DNA from: Gemmatimonadaceae bacterium | GTDB lineage: Bacteria; Gemmatimonadota; Gemmatimonadetes; Gemmatimonadales; Gemmatimonadaceae | DNA: 64,000 nt | Assembly (NCBI GenBank): GCA_024710705.1 | Contig: JANJUF010000104.1 | Span: forward strand, 62,001-126,000 | Direction: 5' to 3' | Shown: one piece after another, positions 1,372-50,243 of the stretch | How the letters are laid out: the number at the start of each line of letters is the position of its first letter | How positions within the stretch are numbered: position 1 is the first letter of the stretch | Translations under genes and position numbers: made by a program | Notes under the pieces: model-generated | Database searches by the model: none | Seen by the model: only the letters and a program-made list of their open reading frames with translations | What the model was told of the DNA's origin: nothing

Positions 1372-2042
1372 ACCCGCTCCGAGCAGAGGGCGCGCAGGGC
1401 CGCAATCTCGGCGCGCGGATCCTTGGCCGAGAAGATCGCATTGCCCGCCACGAAGGTATCGGCGCCGGCGCGCCAGCAGGCGGCGATGGTCTCGCGGGAG
1501 ATGCCGCCGTCAATCTCCAGCACCGCGTGCGAGCGGGCATCGTCCAACAACAGCCGCGCCCGCGCCACCTTCTCCACCGCGCCAGGAATGAACCGCTGCC
1601 CGCCGAAGCCCGGATTCACGCTCATGATGAGAAGCAGATCCAGATCAGCAGCCACTTCGCGCAGCGTCTCGAGCGAGGTGGACGGATTGAGCGTCGCCCC
1701 CGCCTTGGCGCCGAGCTCCTTGATGCGCATCACCTGGCGATGCAGGTGCGGCGCCGCCTCCACGTGGATCGTGATGGTGTCGGCGCCGGACTTCACGAAG
1801 CTCTCGAAGTACTTCTCCGGCTCCACCACCATCAGGTGACAGTCGAGCGGCAGCTTCGTGAGCTTCTTGCAGGTCTCAATCACCTTTGCGCCGAACGTGA
1901 GGTTGGGCACGAACACGCCGTCCATCACGTCCACGTGCAACCAATCGGCGCCGCCGGCCTCGAGCATCGCCAAATCCTCGGCGAGCTTGCCGAAGTCCGC
2001 CGAGAGCAGCGAGGGGGCGATGCGCACGCGCGAGGCCGGCAT
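1368..2042 (-). CDS. rpe: ribulose-phosphate 3-epimerase
   Basis: 224-residue TIM-barrel enzyme interconverting ribulose 5-phosphate and xylulose 5-phosphate in the pentose phosphate pathway. Diagnostic segments are IAPSLLSADF at the N-terminus, the metal and catalytic residues in HVDVMDG, CHLMV and MSVNPGFGGQ, and the phosphate-binding EIDGGI near residue 177. The ATG at 2042 shares one base with the rsmB stop (TGATG). The open frame continues upstream, but the family length (about 220 residues) fixes this start. Linkage of rsmB and rpe is common in bacteria. Confidence 0.96.
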   Translation of the reverse strand: MPASRVRIAPSLLSADFGKLAEDLAMLEAGGADWLHVDVMDGVFVPNLTFGAKVIETCKKLTKLPLDCHLMVVEPEKYFESFVKSGADTITIHVEAAPHLHRQVMRIKELGAKAGATLNPSTSLETLREVAADLDLLLIMSVNPGFGGQRFIPGAVEKVARARLLLDDARSHAVLEIDGGISRETIAACWRAGADTFVAGNAIFSAKDPRAEIAALRALCSERV

Positions 2043-3367
2043 CACTCCGCTCCCCGGCGCAGTCGCGCCGCGAAGGAGCCGTCGGCGCCGTGACGGTGGG
2101 GCAGCACGCGCAGGCGTCCGGCGTCGAGCACGGCGTCGGGCACCGTGCCGGCCGGGGGCGGCTCCAGCGTCCAGCCCGGATGGTCGGACAGGAAGGCCTC
2201 GACCTGCCCGTCGTTCTCTTCCGGCTCGAGCGAGCACGTTGAGTACACCAGCAGGCCGCCCGGCTTCACGTTCTGTGCCGCACCGCGGAGCACGGCGCGC
2301 TGGGCGGCGGCCATCACGGCGAGATCGCTGGTGCGCAGGCGCCAGCGGGCGTCGGGGTGGCGGCGGAATGTTCCAGTGCCGGTGCACGGTGCGTCCACCA
2401 GCACGGCGTCGAACTGCCCCAGCGTGCCATCGCGTGCATCGGCCACGACCGGATCCACGTTCTCGAGCTCGAGGCGCCCGATGGTCTCGATGATCCGCGT
2501 GATGCGGGCCTCGGACGAATCCGCCGCCGTGACGTGCGCGGCCGTACGTGACAGTTCCACGGACTTCCCTCCCGGCGCGGCGCAGAGGTCAGCCACCTGC
2601 GCGCCCTCCGGGAATGCCGCGTAGCGCGTGACCAGCGTGGCAGCGGGATCCTGCACGAAGCAGTTCCCCTGTTGGAACGCGCCGAGCGAGGTGAGCATCG
2701 TCCCCGGTGCGAGCACCAGCGAGTCTTCCACCAACGGCGCGTCGGCAACCTGCACGCCCGCGCTTTCGAGCATGGCTTCCAACTGCTCGCGCACCACGCC
2801 CCAGGGGCGCACGATCAAGGGCGCCTCACGGTTGTTGGCTTCGAGCAGGGCACGCGTCTCGTCGGCGCCCCAACGGGCCACCCAACGCGCCACCATCCAG
2901 CGTGGGTGCGAGTGTTCGATGGCCAGCGCCTCCACCGGATCGGCGGGCAGTGTCGCGCCGAGCGACTCACGCTCACGGTCGAGACGGCGGAGCACGGCGT
3001 TGGCCAGCTTGCTCGCGCCGAGCCCGTGCCGGGTCTTGGCGAGTTCCACCGTCTGCGCGATGGCAGTGTAGGCGGGGACGCTGCCCATGTAGAAGAGCTG
3101 GTGCACGCCGAGCCGCAGGAGGTCGGCGAGGTCGGCATCGAGGCGGGCAAGGCCACCGCGGACGCGGGGCGCGAGGAGATGGTCGATCCAGCCGCGCTTG
3201 CGCAGCATCCCCCACACGAGTTCCTGCGTCCAGCGCCGGTCCCGCGCGTCGAGGTCGGCGGCGCGGCGGTCGAAGGCGGCATCGAGCAACGCACCGCTGC
3301 GGAGATCGGCGAGCGTCTCGGCGGCGGCGATGCGGGCGTCAGTCACGAGCAGGAGGGTGCTTGGCAT
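2042..3367 (-). CDS. rsmB: 16S rRNA m5C967 methyltransferase RsmB (Sun/Fmu)
   Basis: 441-residue enzyme with an N-terminal NusB-like RNA-binding domain (about residues 1-140) and a C-terminal class I SAM methyltransferase. Visible motifs are the SAM site VADLCAAPGGKS, the motif IV cysteine in DAPCTGTGTFRRHPD, and the catalytic motif VI in YSTCSLEPEEND. I chose the ATG at 3367; a TTG lies three codons further upstream. GGAGG precedes the ATG by only about 2 nt. rsmB normally follows fmt directly, but here a three-gene cassette separates them (fmt ends at 5740). Confidence 0.95.
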   Translation of the reverse strand: MPSTLLLVTDARIAAAETLADLRSGALLDAAFDRRAADLDARDRRWTQELVWGMLRKRGWIDHLLAPRVRGGLARLDADLADLLRLGVHQLFYMGSVPAYTAIAQTVELAKTRHGLGASKLANAVLRRLDRERESLGATLPADPVEALAIEHSHPRWMVARWVARWGADETRALLEANNREAPLIVRPWGVVREQLEAMLESAGVQVADAPLVEDSLVLAPGTMLTSLGAFQQGNCFVQDPAATLVTRYAAFPEGAQVADLCAAPGGKSVELSRTAAHVTAADSSEARITRIIETIGRLELENVDPVVADARDGTLGQFDAVLVDAPCTGTGTFRRHPDARWRLRTSDLAVMAAAQRAVLRGAAQNVKPGGLLVYSTCSLEPEENDGQVEAFLSDHPGWTLEPPPAGTVPDAVLDAGRLRVLPHRHGADGSFAARLRRGAE

Positions 3368-3419
3368 ACCCTCCAAAGATAGTCGGTTCTCGGAGCGACT
3401 GAGTATCCCCAGTCAGGAT

Positions 3420-4094
3420 CTACGTTCCGCCCACTGCTCGAACCCTGAGAGAAGCATTTACGTGTCGTTCGAACCACGCAATCGGCGGAACGCCCTCCCA
3501 TAGCTCCCGTCCGATCACGAAAGTCGGGGTGCCGCGCAAGTGAAGGGTCCTTGCAAGCAGGACATCGCGTTCCACTTTACCGGAGTGAGCTTCGGTTTCA
3601 AGGCAGGAAGTGAACGCCGTGACATCAGGAATGCGGACGCGGCCTGCAATCGACGACCAATCAATCCTGCCAATCGAATCCTGAATCTCGAAGAGCGCAT
3701 CGTGATAGGCCTCGAACATGCCCTGCTCACCCGCGCATTCGGAGGCCAGCGCCGCCGTCCATGCATGCGGGTGTAAGGTCTCGAGGGGTAGGTGGCGATA
3801 TACGAATGACACCTGCTCGGGAAACAATGCCGCGACAGAGTCCATGGTCGACTGTGCGCGAGCGCAGAACGGGCACTCGAAATCAGAAAATACGGCGATG
3901 CGGATCGGCGCATCGTTGGGACCCAGCACGTGTCCCACCGTAAAGAGTCCGGGAACTTCGGCAAGTCGCCTGCCCGACGTGCTCTTGAGGCTGCTCGCAG
4001 ACATCGTTCGATACGTCGCGAGTGCCGTCAACACGATGGCGCAACACGCAAGCGCGACCGTGGCGAGGTCCGCGATGGACCGAGGGCGCTTCAT
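3420..4094 (-). CDS. membrane-anchored DsbA-like thiol oxidoreductase
   Basis: 224-residue protein with an N-terminal membrane segment (residues 10-28) and a DsbA/thioredoxin_4-type domain. The active site is FSDFECPFCARAQ near residue 75, and the cis-proline loop is LRGTPTFVIG near residue 190. Such proteins make or reshuffle disulfides in exported proteins. GGAG lies about 8 nt before the ATG. It is the last gene of the cassette, 37 nt after the propeller gene and downstream of a secreted peptide with six cysteines, so that peptide is an obvious candidate client; this is inference. Base composition is visibly less GC-rich than in rsmB or fmt. Confidence 0.85.
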   Translation of the reverse strand: MKRPRSIADLATVALACCAIVLTALATYRTMSASSLKSTSGRRLAEVPGLFTVGHVLGPNDAPIRIAVFSDFECPFCARAQSTMDSVAALFPEQVSFVYRHLPLETLHPHAWTAALASECAGEQGMFEAYHDALFEIQDSIGRIDWSSIAGRVRIPDVTAFTSCLETEAHSGKVERDVLLARTLHLRGTPTFVIGRELWEGVPPIAWFERHVNASLRVRAVGGT

Positions 4095-4131
4095 TGCCCT
4101 GTCTCCATCGTCGATGGATCAATGCGCACGG

Positions 4132-5316
4132 TCAGCGGACCTGCACTATGCGAGGCTTCCATATCTCAACTCTCAGCAGACCATCCGGTCCTTCGCTGGT
4201 TGTGTAGATGCGGCCGTCGGAGGTAAACCGCTGCAAATAGCGGTCGAAGCGTTGTGACACAAGCACTCGCCCCGTGGTTGGGTCGACGACGTCGAGGACA
4301 GTGTCAAAGCGTGTATCGAAATCCTCAACTTGCGGTGCGACGTACTCACCCACGACCCGTGCACCGCTTCCGGAGCGCCGGGGTGGCTGACGGTTGGGTG
4401 CGCGACGATCTGTCACGACGCCGAGAATCCAAACCTGCTGAAGAGAATCCGCGAACACCCCCTCGACTCTTGGAAAAGGTGGCGCACCGGGTCCCGCTGC
4501 GAGGAGGTCGGTCTGCGTCCAACGCTCAAACCACGAAGCCTCTACCGTCCGCTGCGAGATCCGGGTTCCTCCAGTGCTCCAAACCTCCACTCCGTAGCGG
4601 TAGTTTCGTGCTACTGCGGCAAAGCGGTTAGCACCAAGCGAGGCGACCCAGTACTGAATTGCATCTGAGTCAGATTTCGACTCCTCCGGTGTTCGCGGAC
4701 CGAACGACCGCACAACCGTGAGGCTCGAGTCAAGCAGAACGAAAGCGGGATGGCCTGGCATGTAGTTGTTCACTACGATGTGGCCATTACCGACGCCTGC
4801 GAATCGAAACGCGCGAACTCCGGGTGGGAGTGACACCTGAGCTGAAATCCGGCCACCCGATCCGACTGCGGAGAGGCGCGCGCCGTCGAGGACCCCGACG
4901 ACCTCGGAGGAGAGATTCCCGACAAATCGAACGCGGCCGAGCTCGCCGGGTCCCTGGCCGAATCGACCCACCGATTGCCTGAAGGAGCCGGCGCTGTCGA
5001 AGGACAGCAACTCGCCCGGCGAGAACGACGGTCCGACTACGTACGAGCCCCTCGGACCACGGGCCACGAACGCAGAAGGACTGATTGCGGGAGCGGCGGT
5101 ACTACTCGATCGAAGCAGGAGGTCAAGAGAAAGTACGATCCTGCAGGAACACGAGCGGTCTTCCTCGGTTGACTGCAACTCTTGCTGCGCCTGGGCGTCA
5201 CGAGCGCTCAGCGCGAGGCCGAATACCACCGCCAGCCCGAAGTTGCCGATGTCTAATAGGGTTCGCACGGGTTGTGATACTGATGGCAGTAGCCGATATA
5301 TGTGCTCAGGTGACAT
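4132..5316 (-). CDS. exported 6-bladed beta-propeller protein
   Basis: Up to 394 residues. A signal peptide is best seen in the stretch ending GLALSARDAQAQ. Propeller-type repeats follow, including the recurrent segment SVGRFGQGPGELGRVRFVG, which is typical of 6-bladed propeller proteins abundant in Gemmatimonadota and Bacteroidota. The start is uncertain. The ATG at 5316 would overlap the peptide gene by 64 nt and puts 16 extra residues before the signal. A GTG at 5268 gives VRTLLDIGNFGLAVVF, a cleaner signal peptide with a 16-nt overlap. It sits between the peptide and DsbA-like genes. Its ligand is unknown. Confidence 0.75.
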   Translation of the reverse strand: MSPEHIYRLLPSVSQPVRTLLDIGNFGLAVVFGLALSARDAQAQQELQSTEEDRSCSCRIVLSLDLLLRSSSTAAPAISPSAFVARGPRGSYVVGPSFSPGELLSFDSAGSFRQSVGRFGQGPGELGRVRFVGNLSSEVVGVLDGARLSAVGSGGRISAQVSLPPGVRAFRFAGVGNGHIVVNNYMPGHPAFVLLDSSLTVVRSFGPRTPEESKSDSDAIQYWVASLGANRFAAVARNYRYGVEVWSTGGTRISQRTVEASWFERWTQTDLLAAGPGAPPFPRVEGVFADSLQQVWILGVVTDRRAPNRQPPRRSGSGARVVGEYVAPQVEDFDTRFDTVLDVVDPTTGRVLVSQRFDRYLQRFTSDGRIYTTSEGPDGLLRVEIWKPRIVQVR

Positions 5317-5531
5317 CCAGCGTCACCGGGACCACACGAGTACTGCGCGCCGGAGCCGAACTCGTGCCCCGTCCCGCTAGGCCCCGCATCGCCCTCGTCG
5401 CAATAACCTTGCGGTTCATTGCCACAGGCGCTCGCGGACTCCGCGTAAACTCCGCTTGGCGCGAGGACTGATATCAGTCCGAACCCCACCACGCAGACTC
5501 CCAGGAAGACCCGCCGGAACTCCTTGTTCAT
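5253..5531 (-). CDS. small secreted six-cysteine peptide
   Basis: 92-residue precursor. A Sec signal peptide starts MNKEFRRVFLGVCVVGFG and probably ends at GVYA. The mature part is about 60 residues, rich in Gly, Tyr and His, with six Cys spaced across it (ACG, YCD, SCG, GCH, YCH, PCE). That allows three disulfides. I chose the second ATG (5531) because GAGG precedes it by about 9 nt and a basic N-terminus follows; an ATG at 5555 would add 8 residues. It is the first gene after the C-tract promoter. I do not recognise the family. The layout (tiny exported peptide, propeller, thioredoxin) resembles Bacteroidota NVEALA-type neighbourhoods, by analogy only. Confidence 0.75.
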   Translation of the reverse strand: MNKEFRRVFLGVCVVGFGLISVLAPSGVYAESASACGNEPQGYCDEGDAGPSGTGHEFGSGAQYSCGPGDAGCHLSTYIGYCHQYHNPCEPY

Positions 5532-5621
5532 AGTGGATACCCTCGCGAAGGTCATGGGTCACCGCTTCTCCGCTAGATGCCGAAGCGCGCAGACGAGTGA
5601 TTCACGTTCGGCGCCGCTACG

Positions 5622-5650
5622 ATTGCGAGGGGGGGGGGGGGATGTGTCAA
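5622..5650 (-). promoter_or_regulatory. promoter with 13-C spacer tract, upstream of the peptide operon
   Basis: Read on the minus strand: a perfect -35 hexamer TTGACA (5645-5650), then CAT and an uninterrupted run of 13 C (5629-5641), then T. The hexamer CGCAAT (5622-5627) starts exactly 17 nt after the -35 box and keeps the AAT end of the -10 consensus. Predicted transcription starts near 5615, about 85 nt before the peptide ATG. A change in tract length would change promoter spacing. The rest of the 5532-5739 gap holds the leader and the end of fmt; I see no other gene there. Confidence 0.65.
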
Positions 5651-5739
5651 GTAACAGTTTTCAGAGTGGGTATCTGTGCTGGCGCGAGCTCCCGTCTGAT
5701 GGGCAAGTAAGGTGTTGAATCGCAACAGATTGCATTCGC

Positions 5740-6666
5740 TCAGAAGCAGTCACCCACGGCGACACCACGCCCCTGCGCCCAGTCCAGCGCGGTGACGCGC
5801 CGCCGCCCCGCGGGATGCACCGTCTCCACTGCCACCGCCCCGGACCCGCAGGCCACGATCATTCCCATCTCCCCAATCTCCAGGACCTCCCCCGGCTCGC
5901 CGCGTCGGTCACTCAGCACGCGGACGCCGAAGAGCCGCGTCTCCGCGTTGCGCAGCACGCCCCAGGCGCCTGGGCGCGGGTCGAAAGCCCGAATGGCCCG
6001 CGAGACGTCCACCGCGTCCTTCCGGAAGTCGAGCCGCGCCATCGCGCGATCGATCTTCGGCGCGTAGGTCGCCAGCGATTCATCCTGCGGCGTGGCCTCC
6101 AGCCCGCCGAGTTCCATCAGCACGAGCGCCTCGACGATCGCCTCGGCGCCGAGTTCGGAGAGCCCTTCGGTGAGCTCGCCACCGGTGATGTCGTTGCGCA
6201 GCTCCACGCGCGATTCAAACAGCACCGGTCCGGCGTCGAGCTTGAGCACCATCTGCTGGATGCTCACGCCGGTTTCGGCATCGCCGGCGAGGATCGCGGC
6301 CTGGATCGGCGCCGCCCCGCGCCAGCGCGGGAGCAAGGAGGCGTGGATGTTTACCGTGCCGCGCGCGGGGAGATCGATCACGTCCTGTCGCAGGAGTTCG
6401 CCGTAGGCCACCACCACGCTCAGGTCGGCTTCGTAGGCGCGGAGCTGCGCCAGGAACTCCTCGCCGCGCGGCTTGTCCGGCTGCAGCACCGGAATCCCTT
6501 CCTCCAGCGCGACCTGCTTCACGGGCGGCGCCACGAGCGTGGACCGCGAGCGCCCCTGCGGCCGGTCGGGCTGCGTGATCACTGCCGCGACCTCGTGCCC
6601 CTCGCCGATCAACGCACGAAGGGCGGGCGTGGCGAAGTCAGGGGTTCCCCAAAACAGGAGGCGCAC
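5740..6666 (-). CDS. fmt: methionyl-tRNA formyltransferase
   Basis: 308-residue enzyme that formylates initiator Met-tRNA. The N-terminus VRLLFWGTPDFATPALRALI fits the family. The catalytic SLLPRWRGAAPIQAAIL motif is near residue 110, and the C-terminal OB-like domain follows. The GTG at 6666 is chosen because it gives the usual length and start. The frame is open further upstream only because it reads through the heptamer repeat. def lies 130 nt upstream on the same strand, and the peptide cassette follows 90 nt after the stop, where rsmB would be expected. Confidence 0.94.
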   Translation of the reverse strand: MRLLFWGTPDFATPALRALIGEGHEVAAVITQPDRPQGRSRSTLVAPPVKQVALEEGIPVLQPDKPRGEEFLAQLRAYEADLSVVVAYGELLRQDVIDLPARGTVNIHASLLPRWRGAAPIQAAILAGDAETGVSIQQMVLKLDAGPVLFESRVELRNDITGGELTEGLSELGAEAIVEALVLMELGGLEATPQDESLATYAPKIDRAMARLDFRKDAVDVSRAIRAFDPRPGAWGVLRNAETRLFGVRVLSDRRGEPGEVLEIGEMGMIVACGSGAVAVETVHPAGRRRVTALDWAQGRGVAVGDCF

Positions 6667-6680
6667 TGGGCTGAGAGCGA

Positions 6681-6793
6681 GACGGAAGACGGAAGACGGA
6701 AGACGGAAGACGGAAGGGAACATCGTTCGAGGACGCGTAACCCAATGTAGCTCCAGGGCGCCCTCCTCCGCCTTCCGTCTTCCGTCTCTCGTC
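6681..6793. repeat. GACGGAA heptamer array with inverted partner (fmt-def gap)
   Basis: Five perfect tandem copies of GACGGAA (6681-6715) followed by GGGAA. After about 57 nt there are two perfect inverted copies TTCCGTC (6773-6786) and one degenerate copy (6787-6793). The two arms could pair in RNA or single-stranded DNA. The same unit recurs at 11749, 37690 and 50214. Confidence 0.85.
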
Positions 6794-11742: not shown

Positions 11743-11748
11743 ACTCGA

Positions 11749-11776
11749 GACGGAAGACGGAAGACGGAAGAGGGAA
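11749..11776. repeat. GACGGAA heptamer array (upstream of yebC)
   Basis: Three perfect tandem copies of GACGGAA (11749-11769) and a fourth degenerate copy, GAGGGAA (11770-11776), immediately 5' of the yebC start codon on the opposite reading strand. No inverted partner is seen nearby. It ends in GGGAA like the other arrays. Confidence 0.8.
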
Positions 11777-11801
11777 GGAGCTTGAGTGGAATCTAAACGC
11801 G

Positions 11802-37689: not shown

Positions 37690-37747
37690 GACGGAAGACG
37701 GAAGACGGAGGGAAACTGCGGGATCCTTCCGTCTTCCGTCTTCCGTC
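37690..37747. repeat. inverted GACGGAA heptamer hairpin (tdh-kbl gap)
   Basis: Two perfect copies and one near-perfect copy of GACGGAA (37690-37710), then GGAAACTGCGGGATCC, then three perfect copies of TTCCGTC (37727-37747). The arms can form a stem of about 20 bp with a loop of about 16 nt. It sits exactly between tdh and kbl, where it could attenuate or stabilise the shared transcript. Confidence 0.85.
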
Positions 37748-50213: not shown

Positions 50214-50234
50214 GACGGAAGACGGAAGACGGAA
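50214..50234. repeat. GACGGAA heptamer array (between two terminators)
   Basis: Three perfect tandem copies of GACGGAA (50214-50234) followed by GGGAAAAG. It lies between the plus-strand terminator at 50161 and the minus-strand terminator at 50244. Confidence 0.85.
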
Positions 50235-50243
50235 GGGAAAAGC

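Follow-up and report, generated by a model that had tools for sequence, protein, structure and literature searches.

The window analysed here is a stretch of 64,000 nucleotides from the draft genome of an uncultured environmental bacterium, Gemmatimonadaceae bacterium (GenBank assembly GCA_024710705.1, contig JANJUF010000104.1, positions 62,001 to 126,000). On its minus strand, a run of 13 cytosines (C13) lies upstream of three co-directional genes that encode a secreted Cys-rich peptide, a secreted protein resembling a six-bladed propeller, and a DsbA-like thioredoxin-fold protein, hereafter called the cassette. The run begins 3 nt past a perfect TTGACA, and the flanking DNA is TTGACACAT and TCGCAATCGTAGCG (Table 1). 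An initial annotation had described TTGACA, CAT and C13, followed by CGCAAT starting 17 nt after the -35 box, and this arrangement is present at 5650-5622, with a single T between the tract and CGCAAT.

Table 1. Features of the cassette locus, in window coordinates
Feature	Position	Strand	Basis
-35 box TTGACA, perfect consensus	5645..5650	minus	Sequence; same box recurring beside tracts
CAT between -35 box and C13	5644-5642	minus	Sequence
C13 homopolymer tract in promoter spacer (G13 on plus strand)	5629..5641	minus	Sequence
Single T between C13 and CGCAAT	5628	minus	Sequence
Candidate -10 CGCAAT, spacer 17, without A at position 2	5622..5627	minus	Sequence
Candidate -10 AATCGT, spacer 20	5619..5624	minus	Favoured by pattern at comparable sites (inferred)
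Secreted Cys-rich peptide, 92 aa, signal-like N-terminus	5253..5531	minus	Translation; other in-frame start upstream at 5555
Secreted six-bladed-propeller-like protein, GTG start at 5268; longer ATG form from 5316	4132..5268	minus	PF17170 relatives
DsbA-like thioredoxin-fold protein, N-terminal membrane anchor, CPFC motif	3420..4094	minus	PF01323, PF13462
Acquired insert, approximate extent, 2.36 kb	3388..5743	minus	fmt/rsmB adjacency in relatives, junction comparison, lower GC
fmt (methionyl-tRNA formyltransferase), final codons changed by insert	5740..6663	minus	Comparison with relatives
rsmB/sun (16S rRNA methyltransferase-like), next gene past insert	2042..3367	minus	Comparison with relatives

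The tract and its promoter

Runs of G or C of at least 4, 5, 6 and 7 nt occur 453, 69, 10 and 3 times in the window, and beyond 7 the C13 tract stands alone. Extrapolation from the decay of these counts gives an expectation of about 1e-4 runs of at least 13 in 64 kb. The earlier remark that the window holds no comparably long run was therefore correct, the next-longest G/C run being 7.

At about 16-18 nt from the -35 box the window offers a weak CGCAAT (spacer 17); the other candidate is AATCGT at a spacer of 20. The initial annotation had taken CGCAAT as a weak -10 element; its weakness stands, since A is missing at position 2, while its placement at 17 nt is doubtful, because the pattern at comparable sites points to AATCGT. 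Both hexamers are possible, and the comparison favours AATCGT, which appears to fit that pattern at least as well. The promoter was not called by a local consensus scanner because no -10 element within 16-18 nt meets the criteria of the scanner. A DNA search with the intergenic region returned no relative; one 30-bp match lies inside a hemA-like gene and was judged to be due to chance.

The genome (3.0 Mb in 137 contigs, 87.6% complete) was searched for similar tracts by pattern. Among those listed, 10 are of at least 11 nt. C13 and a tract at C89:38787-38800 are contig-interior, the others lie no more than about 150 bp from a contig end, and the contig-end tracts that were checked have no adjoining cassette. 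Several of the contig-end tracts resemble poly-G junk, and the exact length of any homopolymer is uncertain in a draft assembly, as would be expected if the window tract were itself an artefact of assembly or sequencing, or a product of chance. This explanation is scarcely credible: the tract is interior to a 150-kb contig and has normal flanks, the same architecture is found in assemblies of few contigs, and the associations described below are directional and gene-specific.

The cassette and its insert

The peptide gene runs past the GTG start of the propeller gene, and 74-97 nt separate the C13 tract from the peptide start codon. The Cys-rich peptide has no match in Pfam or NCBIfam and no convincing homologue in a single-sequence search. 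The DsbA-like protein, whose CxxC motif is CPFC, matches PF01323 at 68.2 bits (gathering score 25.6) and PF13462 at 64.7 bits (gathering score 23.2). The match of the window propeller to PF17170 is weak (10.4 bits against a gathering score of 22.9, E 0.36), and its homologues at loci L051, L237 and L176 exceed the gathering score; single-sequence structure prediction gave it a mean predicted local distance difference test (pLDDT) value of 34. In many propellers a CxxC or CxC directly follows the signal sequence (for example CTTC, CPNC and CVSC, with CSC in the window; alignment A1). This motif may link the propellers to the DsbA-like partner.

In relatives from the same genus, fmt and rsmB are neighbours wherever both genes are covered. 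The insert in the window begins at about 5743, where it takes the place of the final codons of fmt; its far end, at about 3388, falls right before the conserved rsmB leader. Its GC content is about 60%, compared with about 70% in the surroundings. On these sequence comparisons the cassette operon is horizontally acquired. The promoter and tract sit about 100 bp within the insert and would therefore have arrived with it; by the same token, the tract was rejected as a marker of the insertion junction.

Recurrence at other cassettes

The second contig-interior tract of the same genome (on contig C89, locus L019) reads G14 on the coding strand and is followed, after 68 bp, by the gene for another secreted Cys-rich peptide, which differs from that of the window. 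In this cassette (L019 8787-10141), the peptide is succeeded by a single frame that joins DsbA-like and propeller parts and extends past the contig end. A third propeller locus (L220, C82:29700-35040) consists of two tandem propeller genes at the end of a contig, ahead of a lepA-like gene, and no tract was found in the DNA covered there.

Across genomes of the family, 12 of 54 clean interior tracts precede peptide, DsbA or propeller genes, in a sample that is a listed subset rather than a random draw and in which one genus (g39) is over-represented. At about 70 tract loci of up to 10 kb each, hidden Markov model matches to DsbA or propeller families occur only at the tract-adjacent cassettes. 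The association was also approached from the genes: among 60 loci picked out solely by homology to DsbA or propeller proteins, a C/G run of at least 9 lies upstream in 10 and downstream in none (p 0.0013). The combination of -35 box and tract is found upstream of independent, divergent cassettes beyond the genus, including those of a second family within the class.

Other tracts and repeats were seen along the way. A small genome of the same genus (G010) has eight C/G tracts of 11-14 nt (L208-L215), some apparently inside other genes or where these begin, and no cassette was found near them. A 7-base repeat, (GACGGAA)n, occurs in the window at 6680-6717, 6771-6792, 11748-11777, 37690-37747 and 50214-50236. 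In two cases its copies are paired in inverted orientation, with the potential to fold into hairpins; shuffled sequence gives none. At L005, close to the end of a contig, a C14 tract adjoins a similar TTCCGTC repeat.

Promoter geometry across the order

Within the order, 288 genomes were scanned for TTGACA-N2-9-(G/C)10+ and, for comparison, for the same pattern reversed. There are 26 distinct sites (including L227, where the first G was counted as spacer) against 1 for this control. Fifteen lead into peptide/DsbA/propeller cassettes (L227, L229-L237, L240, L244, L251, L259 and the window site), nine lead into lipoprotein genes, and two are ambiguous. The first gene, as assigned by eye, encodes an exported, lipoprotein or membrane-anchored product at 24 of the 26 sites, compared with a background of 31% obtained by a crude hydrophobicity rule. 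When tracts were picked without regard to promoters, an exact TTGACA was found within 9 nt of 5 of the 12 cassette tracts and of none of 42 others (p 2.5e-4). The 0 of 42 rules out the idea that every tract is a promoter spacer.

Hexamers of the form xAxxxT downstream of the 26 sites are concentrated at spacers of 15-21 (29, versus 2 at spacers of 22-28; p 1.6e-7) and are most frequent at 16-17 and 19-20. Those of C-type tracts fall mostly at 19-21. Such a mix of near-optimal and over-long spacers would be expected if some alleles in a population were ON and others OFF.

These positions bear on whether the tract might instead act after transcription, as part of a 5' untranslated or ribosome-binding region that influences RNA stability or translation, with the true promoter elsewhere. 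At L190 a G11 tract abuts the start codon, at L206, L179 and L019 no -35 box stands at the expected place, and the -10 element of the window is weak, all of which such a role would accommodate. It is nevertheless very improbable for the window, where the tract lies well ahead of the start codon; moreover, TTGACA adjacency is specific to cassette tracts, and hexamers resembling a -10 element follow at preferred distances.

The matches listed from a wider search (L302-L381) place TTGACA-N2-9-C11 sites in many phyla, Planctomycetota among them, and several of the sites that were read precede genes with signal-like N-termini. Slippable promoters may be more widespread than this group.

Differences in tract length

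Related promoters differ in the length of their tracts. In one genome (G257), the related lipoprotein promoters L264, L266 and L268 carry C11, C12 and C13, with near-identical DNA downstream and unrelated DNA upstream. Two sites from different families of the class, L232 (TTGACAGAAC-G11-aTAGCGT) and L424 (TTGACAGAAC-G15-aTAGACT), have the same flanks and tracts that are 4 bases apart. In three orthologous cassettes from different species, each with DsbA as the first gene, the block of -35 box and tract is kept (G11-12), whereas the intergenic surroundings have diverged. In another genome (G104) the assembly breaks within a tract (C14-N10-C10). Taken at the level of sequence, the length differences support slippage over evolutionary time.

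The tract might alternatively be a fixed promoter or DNA-structure element, which sets constitutive strength or binds a regulator and seldom switches by length. A position beside -35 boxes is likewise expected of a structural promoter element, and the length differences known here are those among paralogues and between species. Yet the tracts occur in both C and G orientations, which does not allow a base-specific binding site, and related promoters do differ in length. Homopolymer runs of 10-15 are, moreover, generally unstable. A fixed element is thus considered unlikely.

A model for switching

The initial annotation interpreted the arrangement as spacer phase variation of the opc/porA type. 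This interpretation is supported by the recurrence of the geometry at divergent cassettes, by its excess over the reversed control (26 versus 1), by the restriction of adjacent TTGACA to cassette tracts (5/12 versus 0/42), and by the lengths that differ between related promoters. It is probable that slipped-strand phase variation, by way of promoter-spacer length, acts on the exported disulfide-peptide cassette.

According to this model, C13 would be the variable part of the spacer between the -35 and -10 elements of a sigma-70-type promoter for the peptide/propeller/DsbA-like operon. Slipped-strand mispairing at replication would lead to gain or loss of C residues, altering both the distance and the helical phase between TTGACA and the -10 element, and transcription would as a result be high, low or off in different cells. 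The model presumes that tract length varies among the cells of a strain and that the operon uses the TTGACA-C13 promoter. If AATCGT at spacer 20 serves as the -10 element, C13 would be a weak or OFF state and about C10 the ON state; with CGCAAT at spacer 17, C13 would be ON. Less certainly, the DsbA-like protein may oxidise the exported peptide, and exposure of the product outside the cell may be the reason why bet-hedging is favoured by selection.

Several observations weigh against the model. The -10 element in the window is weak and ambiguous, and the length of a homopolymer in a draft assembly may be off by one or two bases. The comparison of lengths covers paralogues and species, with one genome per species. 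Four cassette tracts (L019, L206, L190 and L179) lack a clean fit to a promoter spacer. Finally, 50 of the 60 sampled cassette homologues have no upstream tract; with about five sixths of them tract-free, the switch would therefore be an optional module.

Relation to known systems

In Neisseria meningitidis, opc, porA and fetA have a homopolymer between the -10 and -35 elements and undergo phase variation (PMC2791445, PMC3960869). The cassette promoters are similar in that poly-C or poly-G lies between a -35 box and a candidate -10 element, upstream of exported or surface proteins, and related alleles differ in length. Unlike N. meningitidis, the Gemmatimonadaceae bacterium is environmental rather than host-associated, and switching is here predicted from DNA sequence. 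Each Neisseria locus encodes a single outer-membrane protein, whereas the operon in the window is an acquired one that combines a Cys-rich peptide, a propeller and a DsbA-like protein.

A resemblance in gene content presumably exists with the NVEALA-type clusters of Bacteroidota, which we take to combine a small exported peptide, a PF17170-type propeller and a thioredoxin-fold protein. In contrast to those clusters, the peptide in the window has no NCBIfam or Pfam match, and its thioredoxin-fold partner is DsbA-like. A survey has described homopolymeric tracts as a general device of gene regulation in prokaryotes (PMC2831843). The tracts in the part of that survey considered here lie within coding genes, whereas the window tract lies between genes and such tracts go with a single type of cassette.

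To our knowledge, nearly all examples of phase variation come from host-associated bacteria, mainly human and animal pathogens. In a 2025 review, the bacteria of soil and ocean are described as a gap in what is known of this field (PMC11868660), and no paper tying Gemmatimonadota to phase variation was found in the literature searched. Switches of this type have been described before; in that literature, none appears to have been reported for exported disulfide-peptide operons in Gemmatimonadaceae.

In an environmental phylum that has received little study, a recognised type of switch thus recurs at exported-peptide operons of a single kind, and the statistics set this apart from chance. The finding also provides a concrete list of loci for testing in existing metagenome reads, and marks the peptide/DsbA/propeller cassette, which is unnamed, as something whose exposure merits hedging. 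More tentatively, with the balance slightly against it, Gemmatimonadaceae, which are free-living environmental bacteria, may carry dispersed, horizontally moving operons for hypervariable secreted disulfide-rich peptides, each with its own oxidase and a slippable promoter to itself. A clone would in that case be a mosaic of cells exporting different sets of peptides. If true, this would be a contingency-locus system outside host-associated bacteria, possibly serving competition, phage evasion or surface variation.
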